Assembly (NCBI RefSeq): GCF_900112415.1
Contig: NZ_FOLV01000024.1
Location: 1 to 54,034, forward strand
Direction: 5' to 3'
DNA: 54,034 nt
Source: Bacillus sp. 491mf
GTDB lineage: Bacteria; Bacillota; Bacilli; Bacillales; Bacillaceae_G
A program made the translations under genes and the position numbers. Shown piece by piece: positions 19,891 through 47,423 of this stretch (the stretch's first letter is position 1; the number at the start of each line of letters is the position of its first letter). A model generated the notes under the pieces. The model had not been told where the DNA came from. It saw only the letters and a list, made by a program, of their open reading frames with translations, and ran no database searches.

Positions 19891-19930
19891 GAGGTACCGC
19901 CCCATGCCCATCAACTTAAGATAAATTTGT
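19891..19930. mobile_element. Solo IS231 left end
   Basis: CATGCCCATCAACTTAAG (19903-19920) is an exact IS231 terminal repeat, preceded by GAGGTACCGCCC, which resembles the outer end of Tn4430 (GGGGTACCGCC), a known target of IS231. After about 10 more bases IS231 similarity stops and a different element begins. Confidence 0.7.
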
Positions 19931-31891: not shown

Positions 31892-32050
31892 TTACCAATG
31901 AATATTTTTTAACTGATAGAACAGGGGTATTTTACCTTCTCTGAAAAGGTTGTTGATAAGCGATTAGTTACACTTAATTCTCAAATGTTAATAGGTGCAA
32001 ACATACACTTTCATGAGGAAAATGATATCTTGGAAGGGAGGAGATACACA
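31892..32050. other. Interval with an unrecognised coding fragment
   Basis: From about 31914 a short frame reads IEQGYFTFSEKVVDKRL and continues to NDILEG near 32035 without a start codon. I do not recognise it. It abuts the IS231 derivative, so it may be the end of a gene interrupted by insertion. Confidence 0.3.
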
Positions 32051-32544
32051 CATCCATCAACTTAAGAATTTTATAAAGCTCCCAAAATGAAAAAATACGT
32101 TATTCTTTCTGTAGAATCATAGGAAAGGATGGCGTTTTTTGTATGTCTATTTCTATATCTGATGAATTACAACTATTTGCTCAAGAAATTCAAAGCTTTT
32201 TATCTCCAAATATCTTATGAGATCTTGCTAGAGATGTTGGTTTCATGCAACGAACCAGTAAATACCAAGCAAAAGATTTAGTCGCTTTATGTGTATGGAT
32301 GAGCCAAAATATCGCTACGACTTCTTTAACTCAATTATCTAGCTGTTTGGAAGCATCAACAGAAGTGCTCATCAGTCCTGAGGGATTGAATCAACGATTT
32401 AATCAATCGGCTTAATTCAAAAAAATGAAACTCGTTAGGGTTTATTTCGTATGCAAATCTTTAAATTCCCTACACGTAGCCTTTAGAAAAAAGAAGCAAC
32501 CTCTACTATGATTGACGTTGTGTGAACTTAGCTGGATAGCAATG
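32051..32544 (+). mobile_element. Internally deleted IS231 derivative
   Basis: The element runs from the left end CATCCATCAACTTAAGAA (32051-32068) to a degenerate right end CTTAGCTGGATAGCAATG (32527-32544). The transposase start (32143, MSISISDELQLFAQEI) has a TGA after 25 codons, continues to TAA 32413-32415, and is then joined to the 3' non-coding part (GGGTTTATTTCGTATGC) that ends the larger copy at 43750-43850. About 1.2 kb of the transposase gene is missing, so it can only move in trans. Confidence 0.8.
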
Positions 32545-32555
32545 AGATACGGCCA

Positions 32556-32690
32556 CATATCTATCCAGCTAAGATAAATTTGTACTCACATAAACAAAAA
32601 ATGCTATTCTTTTTGTAGAAATATACAGAAATGATGGTATTTTTGTATGAATCTATTGATGCAATAATTCTGATCAAACTTTGGTTTAGC
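32556..32690 (+). mobile_element. Second truncated IS231 left part, back to back with the first
   Basis: CATATCTATCCAGCTAAG (32556-32573) is a diverged left end, followed by TGCTATTCTTTTTGTAG and GATGGTATTTTTGTATGAATC, which parallel the leader of the IS231 copy at 32100-32150. It stops after the first few codons. Only 11 bases separate it from the right end of the previous element. Confidence 0.65.
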
Positions 32691-34698: not shown

Positions 34699-35318
34699 AT
34701 GAAACATAAAAAATTTGGATATGTGCGAGTTTCGAGTAAAGATCAAAACGAAGAACGACAAATTCAGAATATGAAGAATTTAGGGATAGAAGAACGGGAT
34801 ATTTTCATAGATAAAGAGTCTAGAAAAATATGGAGTGAGATAATTATCAAATGCTAAAACGTCTTGTTCGTACAGGAGATACCATTGTGTTTGATTCCTT
34901 GACAAGACTCGGAAGAAATATGAATGATACATTAGAAGAATTTAGATATTACGAAAAACATAAAGTAAATTTACAATTTATAAAGGAACCATACATTAAC
35001 GTCAATTACACTGGGGAAAGTACAAATGATGTCATTCAGAGCGCAATTCAAAAAGCAACACTGACAATATTATCTGCCTTTGCAGAAAAAGAGCGCATTG
35101 ATATTAAACAACGTCAAGCTGAAGGAATTGCTCTTGCCAGAAAGCAAGGTAAACGTTTAGGATGTCCTCCTGTCGAAATAACAGAAGAATTTACGGATGC
35201 TTACAAGGAATGGAAATCTGGTTCAATTACAGCGGTAGGAGCTATGAAAAAGTATGGCATCAAACGTTCTTCTTTTTATAAGCTCGCTAAACAACATGAG
35301 GAAAAAATAAAAGAATAG
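34699..35318 (+). pseudogene. Serine recombinase (resolvase type), broken near the N-terminus
   Basis: ATG 34699, after GAGGTG, gives KFGYVRVSSKDQNEERQIQN, with the catalytic Ser in VRVSS. After KESRK a missing base shifts the frame, and in the restored frame a TGA replaces an Arg codon. From 34851 the frame is open again: DTIVFDSLTRLGRN, SAFAEKERIDIKQRQAEGIA and a C-terminal helix-turn-helix (SITAVGAMKKYGIKRSSFY). It resembles Tn3-family resolvases or invertases. Translation from the internal ATG 34851 would lack the catalytic Ser. Confidence 0.8.
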
Positions 35319-35603: not shown

Positions 35604-36302
35604 ATGAAGCGTATTTCAATTTTAATAGCTGATGATGAGGTGGAAATTGCTGAATTAATTGGGATACATTTAGAAAAAGAAGGTTATCATGTTGTGAAAG
35701 CTACTGATGGAGAAGAAGCAGTTCGTATCATTCAATCACAACCAATCGATCTAGTTGTTTTAGATATTATGATGCCCAAAATGGACGGTTATGAAGTAAC
35801 ACGACAAATTCGTATGAAACATCATATGCCTATCATTTTCTTAAGTGCGAAAACATCTGATTTTGATAAGGTGACAGGTCTTGTACTAGGCGCGGATGAT
35901 TATATGACGAAGCCTTTCACACCAATTGAATTAGTTGCGCGTGTAAATGCACAACTACGCCGATTTCTTATGTTAAATCAGCCGAAAGTAGAGGAGAATA
36001 AATCTGTTTTAGAAGTAGGTGGAGTTATTATTGATCCAGAGCAACGAACGGTAAATGTATACGGAGAGCAAATTGAATTAACCCCAAAAGAGTTTGATAT
36101 TTTATATTTATTAGCTAGTCATCCGAAGAAAGTATATAGTGTTGAAAATATCTTTCAGCAAGTATGGGCAGATGATTATTACGAAGGTGGAAATACAGTT
36201 ATGGTACATATTCGTACTTTACGAAAAAAACTTGGGGAGGATAAAAGGAAGAATAAGTTAATAAAAACGATATGGGGGGTAGGCTATACTTTCAATGGCT
36301 AA
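35604..36302 (+). CDS. OmpR/PhoB-type response regulator, VanR-like
   Basis: This 232-aa protein has a receiver domain with acidic D10-D11, phosphorylation site D54 (VVLDIMMP) and conserved Lys in DDYMTKPF; the C-terminal winged helix runs from about residue 130 (LTPKEFDILYLLASHP, GNTVMVHIRTLRKKLG). It overlaps the kinase gene by 8 bases. The order regulator-kinase-VanY matches van-like cell-wall systems, though resistance enzymes VanH/A/X are absent. Its likely targets are the carboxypeptidase gene or cell-wall stress genes. Confidence 0.9.
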   Translation: MKRISILIADDEVEIAELIGIHLEKEGYHVVKATDGEEAVRIIQSQPIDLVVLDIMMPKMDGYEVTRQIRMKHHMPIIFLSAKTSDFDKVTGLVLGADDYMTKPFTPIELVARVNAQLRRFLMLNQPKVEENKSVLEVGGVIIDPEQRTVNVYGEQIELTPKEFDILYLLASHPKKVYSVENIFQQVWADDYYEGGNTVMVHIRTLRKKLGEDKRKNKLIKTIWGVGYTFNG

Positions 36303-37401
36303 AATGATGAGAAGCTTTCGTTTTAAAATGATCGCCTTGTTTATGTTAAGTATGGTATTAGCAGCTGGCGTAACATATATGATTTATAAAGGATTACAGT
36401 TCTATTATAAAACGATGGTGCGCTATGAAGATCCTCTAGCTCAATTTAGGTCAATAGTAAGAGAGTTTGGAGATATTAATTTCTTTTTGATTTTCTTTAT
36501 CCCATTATCTATTTTATTCTTTTTCTTTTTAACAAAACCATACTTAAAGTATTTTAATGAAATTTCTAACGGAATTCATTATCTCGCTAACGGTGATTTT
36601 ACAAATAAAGTTCATATTTCATCAAATGATGAATTCGGAAATATTGCGCGTGAGATTAACTTAGCGAGCGAAAAGTTAAAAGAAGCGGTTGAAAGAGGAG
36701 ACTTTGCGGAAAGTAGTAAAGATCAGCTAGTTGTTAACTTAGCTCATGATTTAAGAACGCCATTAACATCTATTTTAGGTTATCTAGATTTAATTCTTAA
36801 AGATGAAAATTTGACAAAGGAACAGATTAAACATTTTTCTACGATTGCATTTACGAAATCGCAACGACTTGAAAGTTTAATTGATGAGTTATTTGAAATT
36901 ACGCGAATGAATTATGGCATACTAAAGTTAGAAAAAAAAACAATTGATATAAGTGAGTTACTTCTACAGTTAGATGAGGAATTATATCCGTTATTAGAGA
37001 AGCGAAATTTAGAAGCTAGATTGAATGTTGATTCGCATTTACTTATTAATGGTGACGGAAAATCGTTAGCTAGAGTATTTGAAAACCTTTTAACGAATGC
37101 TATTCGCTACGGATATGATGGGCAATTTGTTGATATGAATGGATATATTGATAATGGAGAAGTTGTCGTACAAATTATTAATTACGGAGATAGCATTCCA
37201 GAAGAAGATTTGCCATATCTTTTTGATATGTTTTATACAGGTGATAAAGCTAGAACGGAGCAACAAGACGGTACAGGCCTTGGTTTATTTATTGCAAAAA
37301 ATATTGTGGAACAGCATAATGGGACGATCTCTGCTGAAAGTAATGTAATAAGAACAATATTTGAAGTGAGATTGCCAAAAGAAGATAGCTCGAGAATTTA
37401 A
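36295..37401 (+). CDS. Sensor histidine kinase, VanS-like
   Basis: This 368-aa membrane kinase has transmembrane helices at about 10-32 and 61-81 with a short extracellular loop, a HAMP linker (about 82-135), a HisKA dimer helix with H151 in NLAHDLRTPLTS, and an ATPase domain with the N box NLLTNAIRYG and G box DGTGLGLFIAKN. The small external loop suggests sensing within the membrane or with a partner. ATG 36295 or the nearby ATG 36304 could start it; both overlap the end of the regulator gene. Confidence 0.9.
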   Translation: MAKMMRSFRFKMIALFMLSMVLAAGVTYMIYKGLQFYYKTMVRYEDPLAQFRSIVREFGDINFFLIFFIPLSILFFFFLTKPYLKYFNEISNGIHYLANGDFTNKVHISSNDEFGNIAREINLASEKLKEAVERGDFAESSKDQLVVNLAHDLRTPLTSILGYLDLILKDENLTKEQIKHFSTIAFTKSQRLESLIDELFEITRMNYGILKLEKKTIDISELLLQLDEELYPLLEKRNLEARLNVDSHLLINGDGKSLARVFENLLTNAIRYGYDGQFVDMNGYIDNGEVVVQIINYGDSIPEEDLPYLFDMFYTGDKARTEQQDGTGLGLFIAKNIVEQHNGTISAESNVIRTIFEVRLPKEDSSRI

Positions 37402-37483
37402 TAAAAATTTTAAGTTTACCCCACTTTTTATTTTAATAGTTTTTTCTATCCTATACGTATGTTAGATAAAGGAGGAACTAAGA

Positions 37484-38344
37484 ATGAAGAAGTGGGTATT
37501 TATTTCTCTTTTTATATTGTGCACAGTATGTGTTGGGATTTATATAGCACCGTTATTTCAAAAGGGGATAGATGTTAAAATCGTAGAAAAAGATGATAAA
37601 GTAAATACTGTGAATACTGAAAAGAAAGAGATTACAAAGGAACAAATTCATAAAGGGGATTTATTACTAGTTAATAAAGATTACCCTATTAAGAAAGATA
37701 GTATAAGGTCTGATATTATAAATGTATTTCAAAATGCTGAATTAGTAAGAGGGTATGTGATATTTGATAGAAACCTTCGCTTATCAATGGATATTGTGAA
37801 AAAATTTTTGAAGATTGTAGATGCAGCGGAAAAAGAAGGAGTACAGCATTTTTTGATGAATAGCGGTTATCGAGATTTTAAAGAACAAAGGAAGCTATAT
37901 GAGAAAATGGGCTCTGATTACGCACTTCCAGCAGGATATAGTGAACATAATTTAGGGTTATCACTTGATGTTGGGTCTACTCAAATGAAAATGGAGAAAG
38001 CTCCTGAAGGAAAATGGATTGAGGAAAATGTATGGAAATACGGATTTGTTTTACGCTATCCGAAAAATAAAAGTAATATTACAGGAATTCAATATGAGCC
38101 ATGGCATATACGTTATGTCGGTTTACCTCATAGTGCTGTTATGCAAAAAAATAATTTTACTTTAGAGGAATATTTGGATTTCTTAAAAGAGAAAAAAGAA
38201 ATTTCAACGTATATTGAAGGTGAAAAATATACGATTTCTTATTATAAAGTTTCAGAGAATATTAACGTGAATGTTCCAGTGAATAAGCATTACGAGATTT
38301 CAGGGGACAATATAGGAGGAGTTATTGTGACTGTTATGATGTAG
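37484..38344 (+). CDS. D-alanyl-D-alanine carboxypeptidase, VanY family
   Basis: This 286-aa protein has an N-terminal hydrophobic anchor (about 5-24) and a VanY zinc peptidase domain: SGYRDFKEQ, the zinc motif SEHNLGLSLDVG (SxHxxGxxxD) and EPWHIRYVG with the third ligand and catalytic Glu. It trims the terminal D-Ala of peptidoglycan pentapeptide outside the membrane. ATG 37484 follows AAAGGAGG; an 82-base gap after the kinase may hold a separate promoter. A C-terminal extension of about 60 residues follows the catalytic part. Confidence 0.9.
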   Translation: MKKWVFISLFILCTVCVGIYIAPLFQKGIDVKIVEKDDKVNTVNTEKKEITKEQIHKGDLLLVNKDYPIKKDSIRSDIINVFQNAELVRGYVIFDRNLRLSMDIVKKFLKIVDAAEKEGVQHFLMNSGYRDFKEQRKLYEKMGSDYALPAGYSEHNLGLSLDVGSTQMKMEKAPEGKWIEENVWKYGFVLRYPKNKSNITGIQYEPWHIRYVGLPHSAVMQKNNFTLEEYLDFLKEKKEISTYIEGEKYTISYYKVSENINVNVPVNKHYEISGDNIGGVIVTVMM

Positions 38345-38428
38345 ATTTAAAAGAAAATTATACCGTTTATAAAAAAGATAAACCGAATTGCTACTAACTT
38401 CTTTTTTTTCTTATTAGGGGTCACCTTA

Positions 38429-38523
38429 CATGCCCATCAACTTAAGATTTTGAAATACCCCAAAACGAAAATTTTGTGTAGTATGCTTTGAGGTAACTCG
38501 TTCTTTTTAGCTTGATAGCGATG
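38429..38523. repeat. IS231-type MITE, unit A
   Basis: Exact IS231 end CATGCCCATCAACTTAAG (38429-38446) on the left and TTAGCTTGATAGCGATG (38507-38523) on the right enclose a non-coding interior with ACCCCAAAACGAAAA. GGGGTCAC lies outside the left end. It touches the Tn3-type end that begins at 38528 and is the mirror image of unit B at 40010-40128. Confidence 0.75.
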
Positions 38524-38527
38524 GGGT

Positions 38528-38565
38528 GGGGTAACGCCAGCATTTTGGAAAAAACCCACGCTAAG
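38528..38565 (+). mobile_element. Tn3-family terminal inverted repeat, left, Tn4430-like
   Basis: The 38-bp sequence starts GGGGTAACGCCAGCATTTTG and ends CCCACGCTAAG, closely matching the Tn4430 terminal repeat. It points inward to the right. The best mate is the inverted copy at 45220-45257, with about 34 of 38 positions the same by eye. Confidence 0.75.
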
Positions 38566-38707
38566 AGTATGCAAGATTTTATACAGTTTTTCGGCTAATC
38601 CAGTAACAAACGGGAACCCTGAAACCCGCGCCAGGATAGGGATGTATAAAAAATGAATAGAGTCATAGAAAAAGAAAAATGCGGATTCTTTGTGAAAGTA
38701 GAGATCA

Positions 38708-38757
38708 TCCTTTTTCCTTGCTACCAATAATGAGACGTTATGTTAACCTGACATGAA
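38708..38757 (+). repeat. Terminator/promoter block, copy A
   Basis: CCTTTTTCCTTGCTACCAAT leads into ATGAGACGTTATGTTAACC. A second copy at 39227-39276 lies before the YbaK gene. Each copy follows a GGAT...ATCC hairpin with a T tail, so each gene appears to have arrived with its own upstream terminator and promoter. Confidence 0.6.
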
Positions 38758-38827
38758 TATCCTTTTAATCCAAAATTTTACAAAATCACCCTTACTGATG
38801 GTACAATTAAAGTCATGGAGGGATATT

Positions 38828-39181
38828 ATGGGGATTTATTATGTATCACTGTTTCTTATATTCGGCACTGCAATATTCTTATTTTTCTTGTCTAGTTCAT
38901 CAAAAATTAAGGCTAAAAACCTATCATTGATAATGGTTTGTTTAGGAATAAATCTACTCATAAGTCCAGTGGCTTTTTTTATAGGCGGGATAGCTGATTA
39001 TGCAGGTGTGGTGTCTAATTATGGAGCTTATGTTGCGGGCGATTCGGCAACAGCTCCTCCTCTAGTTAGTCATGTACTTTATTTTTTAGGAGGATTTCTC
39101 TTCATTCAGGGAATACCGCTCCTCATACTACTTTTAGCTGTTTGGAAGTTTACAAGAGCAAAGAAAACAAAACGAGTATAG
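38828..39181 (+). CDS. Small membrane protein of unknown function
   Basis: This 117-aa protein has three hydrophobic segments (about residues 2-22, 32-55 and 85-108) and a basic C-terminus ending RAKKTKRV. The loop YGAYVAGDSATAPPLVSH lies between helices 2 and 3. ATG 38828 follows GGAGGG. It sits inside Tn3-type ends with a YbaK gene. I do not recognise the family and infer no function. Confidence 0.7.
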   Translation: MGIYYVSLFLIFGTAIFLFFLSSSSKIKAKNLSLIMVCLGINLLISPVAFFIGGIADYAGVVSNYGAYVAGDSATAPPLVSHVLYFLGGFLFIQGIPLLILLLAVWKFTRAKKTKRV

Positions 39182-39226
39182 AAGCACATAACAAATAAGT
39201 GGATGCCTTTTTAGAGGAGGGATCCG

Positions 39227-39276
39227 CTTTTTTCTTACTATCAATAATGTTGCGTTATGTTAACCGTTCATGTATA
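39227..39276 (+). repeat. Terminator/promoter block, copy B
   Basis: CTTTTTTCTTACTATCAATA leads into ATGTTGCGTTATGTTAACC, matching copy A at most positions. The hairpin GTGGAT/ATCCGC lies just before it at 39199-39235. Confidence 0.6.
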
Positions 39277-39374
39277 CAGTATGCATGTGAAAAGGGTTGT
39301 TAGCTAACAATATTGATTTTCTTGCTAAACCAAAGGAGACGCATGTTAATATTTACCTTATAGGAGGGATAAAA

Positions 39375-39821
39375 ATGAGGAAATTACAAGAGATTCTGGA
39401 GAAAAGTAAATTCTTATTTGAACTAATCCCAAATGATAAACCTATCCTTTCAGTACAAGATGGTGCGGATTATTTTGGGATTGAAGTCGGACAAACAGCT
39501 CCTTCATTGATACTAAAAACAGATAAAGGATTCTTTGCTTTAGTCATATCTGGAAGTCGTGGAAAAGTTAATTTTGAGGAAATAGCTGATATTTTAGGTT
39601 GTAATAAAGTAAAATTAGCATCTCCAAAGGAAGTCCAGAAAGTTACAGGATTTGAAGTAGGAAGTGTATCTATGGTTGGTCTTGATTTACCTTGTGTGAT
39701 AGATAAACGACTTTTCCATTATGATTTTATTTACGGGGGTATTGGTCAATCAACCTTTACATTAAAAATTGAGCCGGAAGCCTTAAATGAATTAAATCAA
39801 GTCATAGCAATATTCGACTAA
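39375..39821 (+). CDS. YbaK/ProX-type aminoacyl-tRNA deacylase
   Basis: This 148-aa single-domain protein belongs to the YbaK/EbsC/INS superfamily that hydrolyses mischarged aminoacyl-tRNA in trans. Recognisable are TAPSLILKTDKGFFALVISG, KVKLASPKEVQKVTGFEVGS and the glycine-rich YGGIGQSTFTLKIEP, where the family binds the substrate. ATG 39375 follows AGGAGGG; upstream in-frame codons lack a site. It is carried within Tn3-type ends, so it may be mobile cargo. Confidence 0.87.
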   Translation: MRKLQEILEKSKFLFELIPNDKPILSVQDGADYFGIEVGQTAPSLILKTDKGFFALVISGSRGKVNFEEIADILGCNKVKLASPKEVQKVTGFEVGSVSMVGLDLPCVIDKRLFHYDFIYGGIGQSTFTLKIEPEALNELNQVIAIFD

Positions 39822-39900
39822 CAAAAAATACTACTTTTTTTCAACAAACCAGTGCTAATAATAAACCACATGTAATTACTTCCGCTAACGAATTTTACGT

Positions 39901-39937
39901 CAACTAGCCCCTCGCAAGAGTGGCTAGTTGTTTTTAC
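39901..39937 (+). terminator. Terminator of the YbaK gene
   Basis: AACTAGCC pairs with GGCTAGTT; GTTTTTA follows. Confidence 0.8.
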
Positions 39938-39972
39938 AGTAACAAAAATGAAGTTTTATTGTTAGAAAATGT

Positions 39973-40010
39973 CTTAGCGTATAAAATCCGCGTTTTACCG
40001 TCAGTACCCC
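39973..40010 (-). mobile_element. Second Tn3-family terminal repeat, Tn1546-like
   Basis: Read on the minus strand this 38-bp tract starts GGGGTACTGACGGTAAAACG and ends TATACGCTAAG, the length and end pattern of Tn3-family repeats. It points inward to the left, so with 38528-38565 it encloses a 1.48-kb cassette of two genes. The interior of the repeat differs from the left repeat, so the two need not be true mates. Confidence 0.55.
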
Positions 40011-40128
40011 ATCGCTATCAAGCTAAGATTTTAAAGTACCCCCTAAACGAAAACTTTGTGTTTTTTATGGCACCGAAGTTCATTTTTATCGTTTTGGGGC
40101 AACCTGTTCTGTTAGGTTGATGGGCATG
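40010..40128. repeat. IS231-type MITE, unit B
   Basis: CATCGCTATCAAGCTAAG on the left and GTTAGGTTGATGGGCATG (40111-40128) on the right enclose ACCCCCTAAACGAAAAC and TTATCGTTTTGGGGC, so the whole unit is an imperfect palindrome. GTGACCCC lies outside. It mirrors unit A and abuts the outer end of the Tn3-type repeat. Confidence 0.75.
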
Positions 40129-40164
40129 TCGTGTGACCCCTATATAAAAGATTTATTTGAAGTT

Positions 40165-40285
40165 ACAATAAGTGCACCACCTTGTTTGTATTATTGTGGA
40201 AGATATTGGTTCTTGATTCATCAAAGGGAAAATAGCCTAGTTCGTCAATGATAAGAAGATCTGGCCGACTCCAACGTTTAAGATG
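40165..40285 (-). pseudogene. istB: IS21-family IstB fragment
   Basis: On the minus strand a short frame reads WSRPDLLIIDELGYFPFDES, the Walker B region of the IstB ATPase helper of IS21 transposition. The flanking parts are missing, so only about 35 codons remain. It lies just after the MFS gene end. Confidence 0.75.
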
Positions 40286-40313
40286 TAATTTAGAATTTTA
40301 CAATGCAAACATT

Positions 40314-41567
40314 TTAGTCCAATTCACGTAATATAGGTATTTTAAAATAAAGAATAAGTGTAAATATTAATAAAGATAACGCCCCAATAAATATAATGAT
40401 TTGTATATGTATTCCAAGTGAAAGGAGTAATGATGTTAACCCATATGAGATTGGTGTAAGCCCCATAGAAGAAAGTGTTTGAATACTCATTACTCTACCA
40501 GTCATGTCTGAATCTGTTTCAGTTTGAATGAGTGAGACAGCGCATATGGAGGAAACAGTCATTGAAAATCCTAGAAAAATAGCAATAGTAATACTTTGCC
40601 ATGATTCAAAAGAAAAGCTAAACAATAAAAAACAAAGTGCTAGTAGCATTGGTGAATTAAGACTTACAATACCTCTTTTTTTCTTAAGATTCAATATACT
40701 CAAAATGACAGATCCGATGACCATTCCTATAGCTAAACATGATTCAAGTAAGCTAAAATATAAAGTATTACCTTTGAGCACATTTTTAACGAAAATAGGA
40801 AGTCCAATAGTTAATGGACCTGTAAAAAAAAGATTTAAGAATAAAGTTTTTAAAACAAAAGCTTTTAAAACGGGTTTTTTTTGTACATAACTAATGCCTT
40901 CTTTTAAACTTTGAAGAATTGGTTGCTTATTTTCTATATTAGTATTTTTGCTACCAATCTTAATGAATAATACAAAAATACTCCCTAATAATAAAAAGCT
41001 AGCAACTAATCCAAAAATGCCTTTATAGTCAAAATTTACAATAATAATTCCGCTTACCATTGGTCCAAAAATAGAAGTGCATTGGCTAGTAGTCTGAATA
41101 ATTGAATTAGCTCTTGTTAGAGAGTTTTTGGGAACAATTGCAGGAATAATTGAACTCGAAGCTGGCCAAAAAAAAGCATCTAGTACGCCAAAAATTAATG
41201 CAAAAAAGATTAAAGTCCACAAATGTATCTCACCTGTTAACATTAATAAAATGACAAGTGCCCCAACAATTAGTGATTTCGTAAAATCTGAAAAGAACAT
41301 AACTTTGGATTGGCTCACTTTATCAGCCAATACGCCACCTAGCAACATAAGTGCAATCCTAGGAGTGGCACCTGCAATGTAAATGATTCCTAACGAAGAT
41401 TCTAAATTTAACATCTTTACTACATACCAGGCTTCAGCAAAATAAAACATGCTAAAACTTAATCCAGTAAAAAACGTGCCAATCCAAAGTAAGACGAAAG
41501 AGCGTTCTTTTACTAAAGAGGTACCTTTTATCTTAACTTTTGTTTTTTGAAGAACAGATTCACTCAT
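40314..41567 (-). CDS. MFS transporter, MefA/EntS-like efflux
   Basis: This 417-aa protein has about 12 hydrophobic segments. It belongs to the MFS_3 group (macrolide or siderophore exporters): LLWIGTFFTGLSFSMFYFAE, GGVLADKVSQSKVMFFSDF (motif A) and GVLDAFFWPASSSIIPAIVP. ATG 41567 follows AAGGTGAT, and its first codons overlap the stop of the ArsR-like gene by 8 bases, so it is translationally coupled to its regulator. The substrate is unknown. Confidence 0.87.
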   Translation of the reverse strand: MSESVLQKTKVKIKGTSLVKERSFVLLWIGTFFTGLSFSMFYFAEAWYVVKMLNLESSLGIIYIAGATPRIALMLLGGVLADKVSQSKVMFFSDFTKSLIVGALVILLMLTGEIHLWTLIFFALIFGVLDAFFWPASSSIIPAIVPKNSLTRANSIIQTTSQCTSIFGPMVSGIIIVNFDYKGIFGLVASFLLLGSIFVLFIKIGSKNTNIENKQPILQSLKEGISYVQKKPVLKAFVLKTLFLNLFFTGPLTIGLPIFVKNVLKGNTLYFSLLESCLAIGMVIGSVILSILNLKKKRGIVSLNSPMLLALCFLLFSFSFESWQSITIAIFLGFSMTVSSICAVSLIQTETDSDMTGRVMSIQTLSSMGLTPISYGLTSLLLSLGIHIQIIIFIGALSLLIFTLILYFKIPILRELD

Positions 41568-42168
41568 CTTTATCACCTTCCTTAAAATAAGGCTCGTCTA
41601 CTTGGAATCCAACTGTGGCTAAATAAAACCATTCCGCGTCACTATTCTCAATTTCATCAATATCATGGAGTTCTTTTAAAAGATTATGATATTTAGCAAC
41701 CCATTCTTCAAATCGATTTTTTGTTGTGCGAATTTCTATTTGACTTGATATTCTAGCCCATTCTTCTGGCTTTTCAGACTGTGTTAAAAAGGCACTTTCA
41801 GGAGCTTCTAAAGCACGACTCTTTGCTCTCTCTAAGGTTGCAATGGTTAATAACCTACGACTCTCTCCATATTCCGAATGAAAAGGTAATAAGTTATTAG
41901 AGGGGATAAAACTTTTAGCAACCGCTTGATATAGTTTTTGAGTCATATTTCTTTTTTTATTTTCCTCTACTATTTGGACTAAACCATTTTTTTCTAGATC
42001 ACGTAAGTGATAGTGAATTTTCGAACGAGATAAACCAATAATTTGTGACAACTGTTGTCCTGAACGAGGTTCTTCAATCAAAAAAGAAAGAATTTGAACT
42101 CTTAAAGGATCACTTAATGATTTTAATTGTTCATAATCATTTAGAATTAATATATCTTTTTGTGTCAT
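41560..42168 (-). CDS. ArsR-like winged-helix regulator of the MFS pump
   Basis: In this 202-aa protein, residues 8-80 are an ArsR-type winged helix (QLKSLSDPLRVQILSFLIEE, then SQIIGLSRSKIHYHLRDLEK). The C-terminal 120 residues are a helical effector-type region with no visible metal ligands. It is first in a two-gene operon with the pump. A perfect 12-bp palindrome lies about 20 bases before its start, in the leader. Confidence 0.86.
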   Translation of the reverse strand: MTQKDILILNDYEQLKSLSDPLRVQILSFLIEEPRSGQQLSQIIGLSRSKIHYHLRDLEKNGLVQIVEENKKRNMTQKLYQAVAKSFIPSNNLLPFHSEYGESRRLLTIATLERAKSRALEAPESAFLTQSEKPEEWARISSQIEIRTTKNRFEEWVAKYHNLLKELHDIDEIENSDAEWFYLATVGFQVDEPYFKEGDKDE

Positions 42169-42186
42169 TTAACATGTTCCTTTCAT

Positions 42187-42242
42187 CTGACTAGTCAGTT
42201 TTTGTTGACATGAATATAACAGTTTTTTCTGATTATTGTCAA
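42187..42242 (-). promoter_or_regulatory. Promoter and palindromic operator of the ArsR/MFS operon
   Basis: On the minus strand, TTGACA (42237-42242), an 18-base spacer and TATATT form a near-consensus promoter. CTGACTAGTCAG (42187-42198) is a perfect palindrome between promoter and gene, well placed for repression by the ArsR-like product. Confidence 0.7.
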
Positions 42243-42267
42243 TAAAGAAATGAAACATTTTCTAAAA

Positions 42268-43882
42268 AAATAAAAAACCGTTATCCTATTTCTAGAATTA
42301 TAGGAAAGGGTGGCGTTTCTTTATGAATCTTTCGATTCTTGACGAACTTCAACCGATTGCTGAAGAATTACAACGACATATGTCTCCTCATGCTCTAGAA
42401 CACCTAGCCAAAGAAAAAGGATTGGTTCAGCAAAAGAGTAAATATCAAGCACAGGAGTTAGTTGCTTTATGTGTATGGCTTAGTCAACAGGTTGCAAGTA
42501 CATCACTCACACAATTATGTAGCTGTCTTGAAGTATCTACAGGTGTTCTTATCAGTCCTGAAGGACTTAACCAACGATTTAATGCTTCCGCAGTACAGTT
42601 TCTTGAACAAGTGCTAGCTAAACTTCTAACTCAAAGAATTCATTCAACAAAAGAAATAATTCATCAATATACCACGACCTTTAAGCATATTCGGATCCTA
42701 GATTCTACAACATTCCAGCTTCCAGATAAGTTTTCTCCGCATTATCAAGGTTCAGGTGGAAGTAGCCATACGGCAGGAGTTAAAATTCAATTGGAGTATG
42801 ACCTGTTGAGTGGAAAGTTCTTGCACGTTTATGTAGGAGAAGGAAGAGAAAATGATAAAACCTTTGGTTCAACAAGCCTACAAACCATTCGACCAAAAGA
42901 CTTGTATATAAGAGATTTAGGCTATTTCGACTTACATGACTTACAGAATATCCATAATAAAGAAGCTTACTATATCTCACGTTTGAAATTAAATTCTCGA
43001 ATCTATCGTAAGAATGATAAGCCAGAGTATTTTCGAAATGGAACCGTGAAGAAAGGATCACTCTATATTCAGTTAGATATGGAAGAACTCATGGATCAAT
43101 TGCTCCCTGGTCAAACAATAGAGATTTCAGAGGCATACATTGGACAGTGTCAAAAATTACCAGCTCGTGTTATTATTCATCGATTAACAAAGGAACAAAC
43201 AGAGAAGAGGCTGAAGGAACAAGCCAAAAAAGAAAAAAAGAAAGGTATTACCTACAAAGAACGAAGTAAACGGTTGAGTGGAATCAATGTGTATATTACG
43301 AATCTTTCTGTAGAAAATGTCCCAACGGAACATATCCATGACTTGTATTCATTACGCTGGTAAATTGAAATTTTGTTCAAAACATGGAAATCTTTCTTTC
43401 AAATTGACAAGTGCAAGGAAATCAAGAAGGAACGTTTAGAATGCCATTTATATGGGCAACTCATTAGTATTTTACTCTGTTCATCGACGATGTTCAAAAT
43501 GCGTCAGTTACTCTTGGATAAGAAAAAGAAAGAGCTAAGTGAATACAAATCCATCTATATGATAAAGAATTATTATCTATTGTTTTATGAAGGATTACGG
43601 AAGGGCATCCATGAATTATTAAAAGTTTTACTGCGTTTGTTTTATCTTTTAGAGAAAAACGGGAGAAAATCTCACCGGTACAAGAAGAAAACAGTCTTTG
43701 ATATTTTAGGCGTCGTATACGACTTTACTATGTCTCACAATCATGTAGCATAATCAAAAAAATTGAAACCCAATAGGGTTTATTTAGTATGCAAATCTTT
43801 AAAGAAGTTACACTGGACCTTTAGAAAAAAGAAAAAATCTCACCGGAAATTAAACTTATATAAGCTTAGCTTGATGGGCATG
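42268..43882 (+). mobile_element. IS231-family insertion sequence, left end missing
   Basis: The right end GCTTAGCTTGATGGGCATG (43864-43882) is a clear IS231 terminal repeat. The IS231 leader is recognisable from about 42268, but no left terminal repeat is found before it. The flank AGGCGATACCCC after the right end is the complement of GGGGTATCGCCT, a Tn3/Tn4430-like outer end. The transposase has a nonsense mutation (separate entry). Confidence 0.8.
42323..43753 (+). pseudogene. IS231 (IS4 family) transposase with an in-frame TAA
   Basis: The frame codes for a full-length IS231 transposase of 476 codons: MNLSILDELQPIAEELQRH, first Asp in IRILDSTTF, second Asp in YIRDLGYFDL. At codon 347 (43361-43363) TAA replaces the CAA of the conserved YSLRWQIE, within the Y-(2)-R-(3)-E-(6)-K signature. 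The frame then continues unchanged (IEILFKTWK to HNHVA), so the stop separates both Asp residues from the catalytic Glu. A single base change explains it; read-through would restore the protein. Confidence 0.88.
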
Positions 43883-44006
43883 AGGCGATACCCCTAAATA
43901 GAATTTTCACTCAACTATTGATAAAGTTGTTCTTTGGCAGGTTTATCCAAACATATATAGAAATATGAAAAAGTAAATTTTAATCTGACCAAAGGAGATG
44001 AAGAAA

Positions 44007-44930
44007 TTGTTTAAAAAAGTCGGTATAGGAGTATTTTCTACAGCAATTGTATTAAGTGCCAGTATAGGTTTTTCAGGTATTGTATCAGCAGATAGTCCAT
44101 CTGCAAATGAACAAGTTAAGAATGGAGATTTTGAGGATGGGCTAAATAACTGGATTTTATCTAATCCTAATTCTTCTACCGAGAATATCGGCACTTCTGA
44201 ACCAGGCAATCATTATCTGAAATTAATACATGCAGACACAGCCTATCAGCTTGTTACTGTAAAGCCGAATACAGAATATACATTAACATTTGATATAGCA
44301 GGAAGTATAGTTTCTCCATCAGAAGTAACAGTAGGTAATCTGAATGCCAATCAAGAAATCGTTCCATTAACAAAGAAGCAGTATACAGGATTTAAGCCCG
44401 AACATCATGAGATGAAGTTTAAAACAGGGGAAGACGTGTCAAACTTTGCTGTCAAACTTGCTTCTACAGCAAATGGGAGGGTTAAGTTTGATAATGTACA
44501 ATTAAAGGAAAAGGAGAAATCTTATATTTTAAATATTGATTTTGACCGCAATTCAAGTTTAGAGATTTTTAAACCATATGGCGATGTAAATTACAATATT
44601 GAAGAGCATGTAGGAATAAATAATTCTAAAGGACTTCATTTAAGTGGATCAGGCGGTCTGTTGATGGGGTCCGTAACTTTGAAGCCTAATACTACATACA
44701 TAATGTCTGTATTTGGAAAAATAACGACTCCTGGTAAAACAGTACTCGTGGGGGCAGCAACTAATGGAATGAGAACAGCTTATATGGAATTTACTTCCTC
44801 ACAGTATGAACAAAAATCGGTCGAATTTACTACTCCAAATAATAATTATCCAACTAACGTCTTCTTAGATCCTATTTCAATGAAAAGCTTTGATGCCTAT
44901 TTTGATGATATCGTACTAGTTGAAAAGTAG
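44007..44930 (+). CDS. Secreted protein with two carbohydrate-binding-like modules
   Basis: This protein of about 307 aa starts with a signal peptide (hydrophobic core STAIVLSASIGFSGIV, cleavage after VSA). Two tandem beta-sandwich modules of CBM4/9-type follow (about 35-165 and 170-307), each starting with NGDFEDGLNNW or an equivalent (NIDFDRNSSLEIF) and ending FDNVQL or FDDIVLVEK. No catalytic domain is present, so it may bind polysaccharide on the cell surface or matrix. TTG 44007 is favoured, since AAAGGAG is 9 bases before it; ATG 43998 touches that site. Confidence 0.78.
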   Translation: MFKKVGIGVFSTAIVLSASIGFSGIVSADSPSANEQVKNGDFEDGLNNWILSNPNSSTENIGTSEPGNHYLKLIHADTAYQLVTVKPNTEYTLTFDIAGSIVSPSEVTVGNLNANQEIVPLTKKQYTGFKPEHHEMKFKTGEDVSNFAVKLASTANGRVKFDNVQLKEKEKSYILNIDFDRNSSLEIFKPYGDVNYNIEEHVGINNSKGLHLSGSGGLLMGSVTLKPNTTYIMSVFGKITTPGKTVLVGAATNGMRTAYMEFTSSQYEQKSVEFTTPNNNYPTNVFLDPISMKSFDAYFDDIVLVEK

Positions 44931-44992
44931 CCATAATAAAAAATATATTTCTATCATTGACACATAAAAACAATTCTAAAAATGAGCCGCCA

Positions 44993-45117
44993 TATGCCTA
45001 TCGACTTGAGACTTTGAAATGTATCTACAACGAAGTTTGTTCTTTCTACATTTATTTATGGGAATTCAGCTCGTTTTTCATTTTGGGGTATTTGCTATTC
45101 TTAGATTGATAGTGATG
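44993..45117. repeat. IS231-type MITE, unit C
   Basis: TATGCCTATCGACTTGAG on the left and CTTAGATTGATAGTGATG (45100-45117) on the right enclose a 90-base non-coding interior with a TTTTGGGGTA arm. Outside are GAGCCGCCA and TGGCGAGACCC, again resembling Tn3-type outer ends in inverted orientation. Confidence 0.65.
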
Positions 45118-45219
45118 TGGCGAGACCCTATAATAGATAAATTATAAGTTTAAATGACTGCCAAAAACGATCATTATGTCAATCAGCTGTCCATATGGGC
45201 ACTGATTGTATTTTTTTTG

Positions 45220-45257
45220 ATTACCGTGGGGTTTTTCCAAAATGCTGGCGGTACCCC
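45220..45257 (-). mobile_element. Tn3-family terminal inverted repeat, right, Tn4430-like
   Basis: Read on the minus strand it begins GGGGTACCGCCAGCATTTTG and continues GAAAAACCCCACGGTAA, the inverted partner of 38528-38565. The pair brackets 6.73 kb with five genes, an IS231 and no Tn3 transposase. Confidence 0.75.
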
Positions 45258-47405: not shown

Positions 47406-47423
47406 CTTAAGTTGATGGGCATG
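47406..47423. mobile_element. Solo IS231 right end
   Basis: CTTAAGTTGATGGGCATG is an exact IS231 terminal repeat in right-end orientation. No transposase or left end accompanies it, so it is a leftover of a deleted copy. Confidence 0.75.

Follow-up and report, generated by a model that had tools for sequence, protein, structure and literature searches.

Positions 38528-45257 of the window, by which we mean the whole 54,034-nucleotide stretch of Bacillus sp. 491mf DNA analysed here (contig NZ_FOLV01000024.1, positions 1 to 54,034), are bounded by two Tn4430-like terminal repeats. We read this region, with slightly more confidence than doubt, as a worn Tn4430-like cassette carrier whose cargo has been exchanged by site-specific recombination and which was later invaded by IS231-type elements. 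Comparison with similar elements elsewhere points to a family with common ends, two kinds of site (A and B), cassette borders that fall at these sites, one orientation and stacked cassettes. As judged from the aligned copies, the left end is made up of a conserved region plus A and the right end of B, a hairpin and the terminal repeat, with the cargo lying between A and B and further cassettes standing behind further A copies of the same orientation. Recombination of A with A and of B with B would allow genes to be inserted, stacked or swapped with the carrier staying put, most likely through the host XerC/XerD pair (CodV/RipX); given a Tn4430-type transposase in trans, the carrier itself would transpose, and resolution of the cointegrate may be a second function of the Xer site. 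The copy in the window would then be an old and worn carrier with two cassettes (gene 1 and a YbaK gene), a foreign right end (WM, below) and later IS231-type insertions against all three of its terminal repeats.

Terminal repeats and recurring ends

The initial annotation described the region as a 6.7-kb non-autonomous Tn3-type carrier enclosed by inward-facing, Tn4430-like 38-bp repeats. The repeats are real: the left one (WL, 38528-38565, plus strand) and the right one (WR, 45220-45257, minus strand), located by repeat alignment and core pattern search, are inverted Tn3-type terminal repeats identical at 34 of 38 positions, and an unguided repeat search recovered the same pair (39 nt, 92%). 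The 25-base repeat core occurs at these two places only in the window and nowhere in 100 dinucleotide shuffles. Ends of this type are rare, with a match at ≤3 mismatches in two of 36 and in one of ten genomes searched, and the first WR pattern gave no match in IMG/VR; at one locus (L093), perfect Tn4430-type ends enclose a Tn3 transposase. In the window, as had been annotated, no Tn3 transposase was detected by Pfam (a scan covering 50 of the 74 window open reading frames, ORFs, of at least 80 aa) or by tblastn with a Tn4430-like TnpA across the window, and a 5-bp target repeat is likewise missing, for the WL-WM as for the WL-WR pairing.

The inner sequence of both ends, about 190 bp on the left and 100 bp on the right, is also found around other cargo, on plasmids as well as on one Bacillales chromosome. 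The left end matches a B. arachidis plasmid element that carries a NUDIX hydrolase gene (L089; 90% over 235 bp), a 760-bp unit in the G044 chromosome (L103; 81% over 221 bp) and the pAP3.9 element with a HAD hydrolase gene (L091; 79% over 224 bp), and the conserved inner left region at 38566-38719 (plus strand), possibly an accessory sequence, has its counterpart in all three. The inner right end matches the same elements and others at 73-86% over 44-111 bp. Both family ends frame one small ORF in G044, and on pZL221 the cargo between family ends is a nucleoside hydrolase. Since the ends recur around different cargo, we assign WL and WR, as left and right end respectively, to a single family with varied genes; because, in addition, the end type is rare, a chance pairing of the two, which the annotation had entertained, is unlikely.

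The third repeat that had been annotated exists as well, at 39973-40010 (minus strand; WM), but belongs to a different Tn3 sub-type, agreeing with WL at 20 and with WR at 19 of 38 positions. On this difference of sub-type, WL and WM were rejected as the ends of one ordinary transposon, though they may form a hybrid. An inward-facing pair in another genome (G300; L060, 9074/10743) was dropped as a second carrier because decayed tnpA pieces lie inside it.

These data also bear on whether the region is simply a 6.7-kb non-autonomous carrier of Tn3 type, the WL-WR block moving whole with a transposase supplied in trans and the dif-like sites described below being irrelevant. Such a carrier would fit the well-conserved inverted repeats of one sub-type, their matching inner ends and the lack of tnpA, and has a precedent in TnBt9727, reported as a Tn3-family element with a single cryptic coding sequence (PMC1196294). 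We nevertheless think it unlikely, given the foreign right end WM and the IS231-type units inside the block, the relatives in which cargo varies between A and B with the ends constant, and the missing target repeat.

Sites A and B and the cassette borders

Site A is present twice in the window, as A1 (38720-38748) and, in the same orientation, A2 (39237-39265; 24 of 29 bases alike), each with a 7-bp spacer; site B, with a 6-bp spacer and followed by a hairpin, lies at 45157-45184. All are on the plus strand and were found by pattern as well as by a dif-like scan. The 29-bp A pattern matches these two places in the window and none in 100 shuffles, and a pattern of the B right half plus hairpin matches once in the window, at 3 mismatches, and never in the shuffles. 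Both sites have the build of dif, in which a spacer separates two 11-bp arms; ten of ten Bacillaceae genomes yielded a chromosomal dif, with a 6-bp spacer, at 0 to 2 mismatches. Among relatives the A spacer is mostly 7 bp and the B spacer 6 bp, and A and B face the same way. When 46 loci, together 550,408 bases and mostly chosen for holding a site, were scanned for dif-like sites, 143 matches at ≤3 mismatches were obtained, compared with 18 in the backward control. On a Priestia megaterium plasmid (L212, NZ_CP085445.1), 100 of its 114 kb contained 16 dif-like sites at ≤2 mismatches and none in the backward control.

The A core occurs exactly in 29 IMG/VR stretches and the B core plus hairpin in 64. 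Where at least 1.5 kb of upstream sequence was available for the loci found through B (39 of the 64), A lay upstream on the same strand in 22 and on the other strand in none, in counts that are not dereplicated; minus eight loci also found through A, the figure for upstream A is 14 of 31. An A-like match downstream was seen in one of the 64 stretches.

Many copies in IMG/VR occupy the same prophage site, which lies behind a gene for a phage integrase (PF00589, 180 aa) and upstream of packaging genes, and there have common ends of ~200-350 bp that are 82-97% alike. For the left border, 28 loci were given, L114-like copies having been removed beforehand; the integrase flank was present in 20, and 18 also had an A core close by, yielding 153 pairs, 136 of which were analysed after discarding 17 with too little sequence. 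The common sequence stopped within 80 bases past the A start in 125 of these pairs and ran beyond 400 in 11, with none between, and the 11 have the same first cassette. For the right border, 53 of 83 loci given had a B core and the common flank, and their 17 distinct cassettes made 136 pairs; in 135 of them similarity resumed within the interval from -22 to +11 relative to the B core, and the single exception (-600) is probably the pair L131/L194, which have similar-looking cassette ends. A search of the phage collection for the prophage-type ends, left and right, with queries taken from L117 and not from the window, gave no match.

Stacking is apparent in several of these copies. L142 consists of the L115 cassette (93.3%) followed by the L114 cassette (98.4%), joined at an A core; the first cassette of L168 is the second of L130 (95%); L122 and L129 have a common first cassette and diverge after the second A; and in L131 and L132 three A-type sites, two of the three at 3 mismatches, stand ahead of B. 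In the window, too, a gene follows each of the two A sites.

Cargo might instead be exchanged by homologous recombination in the common ends, with A and B only regulatory DNA (parts of a leader and a terminator). The ends are of sufficient length and similarity for this and the hairpin after B is terminator-like, but the joint between stacked cassettes falls on the A core, in a common stretch of no more than ~30-50 bp, both sites are dif-like in build and there is a strand bias, and we give this explanation a distinctly small chance. Site-specific exchange by a tyrosine recombinase other than the Xer pair is improbable rather than far-fetched. Tn4430 is resolved by such an enzyme, TnpI, and at the prophage site the gene for the 180-aa phage integrase immediately precedes the left end; against either candidate, no integrase lies beside the window copy among the 50 scanned ORFs, and several copies (L121, L133, L103) have different upstream sequence.

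A number of observations weigh against cassette exchange at A and B on a Tn4430-like carrier. Recombination at these sites is inferred from comparison and not from an observed event, and the coincidence of borders is also explicable by homologous recombination between common ends. When aligned with chromosomal dif, the window arms agree at 17-18 of 22 bases for A1, A2 and a possible further site at 39878 and at 16 of 22 for B, and in each of 20 shuffled windows at least 17 of 22 dif arm bases were matched at 0 to 6 places; the dif likeness in the window alone is thus not beyond that of shuffles, so that the evidence rests on the family. Upstream A is lacking at 17 of the 31 B-found loci. Across 397 Bacillales genomes, site A had 9 matches compared with 19 in the backward control, and because of this lack of enrichment the system seems confined to some groups. 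In the G044 unit the B core is damaged and the ORF points from B towards A, and a target duplication is absent from this unit as it is from the window. Finally, the partner of WL is ambiguous, being WM (1.48 kb) or WR (6.7 kb), of which WR is the family match.

The further site, at 39878-39905 (plus strand), is a weak candidate for a B-type site: it has the spacer CGAATT, stands before a hairpin and scored 3 mismatches in the dif-like scan; a similar one was seen in L090 only, and its pattern had no IMG/VR match. Parts of the left-end region elsewhere adjoin genes annotated as DUF3967 (L098-L100) or MerR-like (L090), or an unannotated ORF (L104). A role for site A as a mobilisation origin or a DUF3967 partition site was considered and rejected, nearness being its sole support. 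On the P. megaterium plasmid, 11 dif-like sites with differing spacers lie on one strand between small genes at 63.6-84.2 kb, in what looks like a long cassette array.

IS231-type elements and cargo in the window

The genes between WL and WR are those listed in the initial annotation, namely a membrane protein, YbaK, an ArsR/MFS pair, IS231 and a CBM-like protein. Cassette gene 1 is a 142-aa ORF at 38753-39181 (plus strand; a start at 38828 is possible) that has no Pfam match and resembles a membrane protein by eye; its product had no match among the plasmids searched. Cassette gene 2, at 39297-39821 (plus strand), encodes a YbaK/aminoacyl-tRNA editing domain (PF04073) according to Pfam. The CBM_4_9-type protein gene at 43998-44930 (plus strand; also by Pfam) may or may not belong to the cargo, and a plasmid search with its product matched one remote record.

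Between the YbaK and CBM genes, an IS231-type unit (40314-43882) comprises genes for MFS (40314-41576, minus strand), ArsR (41560-42168, minus strand) and an IS231 transposase (42323-43753, plus strand), the last with an interrupted frame, and a right end at 43865-43882. A B. arachidis plasmid has the same three genes in the same order, 76.9% alike over ~3.56 kb and with IS231-type ends on both sides, which indicates that the block is a separate IS231-type unit. Three miniature elements of IS231 type complete this layer: one of ~95 bp outside WL (38429-38523), with IS231-type ends on both sides and 110-115-bp versions elsewhere in Peribacillus-type genomes; a second, with such ends, at 40010-40128; and a third at 44991-45117, its left border placed by eye. 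IS231-type ends thus lie at 38429/38523, 40010/40128, 43882, 45117 and 45257, and all three Tn3-type tips (WL, WM and WR) carry one on the outer side, with a 4-base gap at WL. Published work already describes IS231 nested within repeats of Tn3 type (PMC1196294), and we therefore regard this layer as ordinary.

The annotated non-autonomous Tn3 carrier accordingly holds up in part. Tn4430-like ends, together with their inner sequence, do recur around other cargo; a single, simple 6.7-kb block is not supported, given that ArsR/MFS/IS231 forms its own IS231-type unit on the B. arachidis plasmid, that IS231-type ends frame 38429-40128, and that the membrane-protein and YbaK genes are each preceded by a dif-like site, as in the cassettes of relatives.

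The framed segment 38429-40128, which holds the membrane-protein and YbaK genes and no transposase, resembles MIC231 in having IS231 ends on both sides and no transposase, and might have been moved as a cassette of that type by an IS231 transposase, known to trans-activate MIC231 (PMC1196294). We consider this very unlikely. Its 31-nt arms (38415-38445 and 40112-40142) are 87% complementary, but each is a complete miniature element also found alone; MIC231-type direct repeats of ~11 bp were not found at 38429/40128, the outer flanks being inverted instead; and WL, A and B would be left unexplained.

Further IS231-type ends or remnants lie at 19903-19920, 32049-32066, 32401-32593 and 47406-47423 of the window. 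In Peribacillus-type genomes, lone Tn3-type 38-bp repeats of several sub-types abut IS231-type ends (L029, L030, L044, L045, L048 and L054). This set is biased, since all but L054, which was fetched through the terminal repeat, were fetched through the IS231 miniature element. That IS231-type ends mark Tn3 tips as a general rule was rejected: of L054, L055 and L056, the three loci for which the terminal repeat was the sole query, only L054 has one, by eye.

Outside the element, the left flanking genes (36295-38420) have their closest relatives at ~70% DNA identity in the genome sets searched, and the host is therefore probably a Bacillaceae species with no near relative in those sets. An empty site was not found, searches with VanY and flank sequence giving relatives at 53-71% or short pieces and no common flank pair. 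A disrupted gene for a small serine recombinase, with its resolvase N-terminal domain split over two frames, lies at 34714-35318, ~3.2 kb left of WL, and ~40160-40310 resembles by eye a fragment of an IS21-type istB gene. Some plasmid records labelled Klebsiella, Pseudomonas, Streptomyces or endosymbiont hold Bacillus-like DNA and may be mis-assigned; possible cases among the records labelled Klebsiella and Pseudomonas, with Bacillus-like DNA that includes spore germination genes, are L093 and L102 (CP079755.1) and L004 and L098 (NZ_CP100662.1 and NZ_CP100661.1).

Comparison with other cassette systems

A broader proposal, to which we give a little less than an even chance, is that these Bacillus relatives have an integron-like system without an integron: arrays with one-way dif-like sites of two mutually incompatible spacer kinds, set inside Tn3-type ends, in which Xer would swap and stack the cargo and a Tn3 transposase would move the platform. 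Integron cassette arrays consist of single-gene cassettes in one orientation, stacked beside a fixed platform, and the family of the window resembles them in each of these respects. Unlike integrons, it has no integron integrase among the 50 scanned window ORFs, the phage-type 180-aa integrase flanking prophage copies only, and its sites are by their build (they were not folded) dif-like and not attC.

The plasmid dif (pdif) modules of Acinetobacter plasmids (PMC13141974) also have genes arranged as modules between Xer-type sites, and their exchange follows identical or nearly identical spacers. Those modules (C and D) stand in both orientations, whereas A and B are one-way; the present family differs further in having one kind of site with a 7-bp and another with a 6-bp spacer, in its position inside Tn3-type ends and in its occurrence in Bacillaceae. 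The 38-bp Tn4430-like ends and the lack of a transposase in the window element recall Tn4430, TnBt9727 (PMC1196294) and the TIMEs (PMC4133298); the conserved inner ends, dif-like sites and exchangeable cargo set the family apart from these elements. The IS231-type ends, the transposase with passenger genes, the miniature elements and the insertion at Tn3-type repeats are as in IS231 and MIC231 (PMC1196294), and these parts, unlike the carrier ends, were inserted into the carrier or next to it.

The open-access literature searched yielded no account of cassettes of this kind in Bacillus. If the proposal is true, Bacillus plasmids and prophages would gather and exchange small metabolic genes with no need of an integron integrase, in a natural case of cassette exchange that uses two incompatible sites, like cassette exchange in the laboratory. 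It would also explain the varied single genes carried by Tn4430-type elements that have no transposase.

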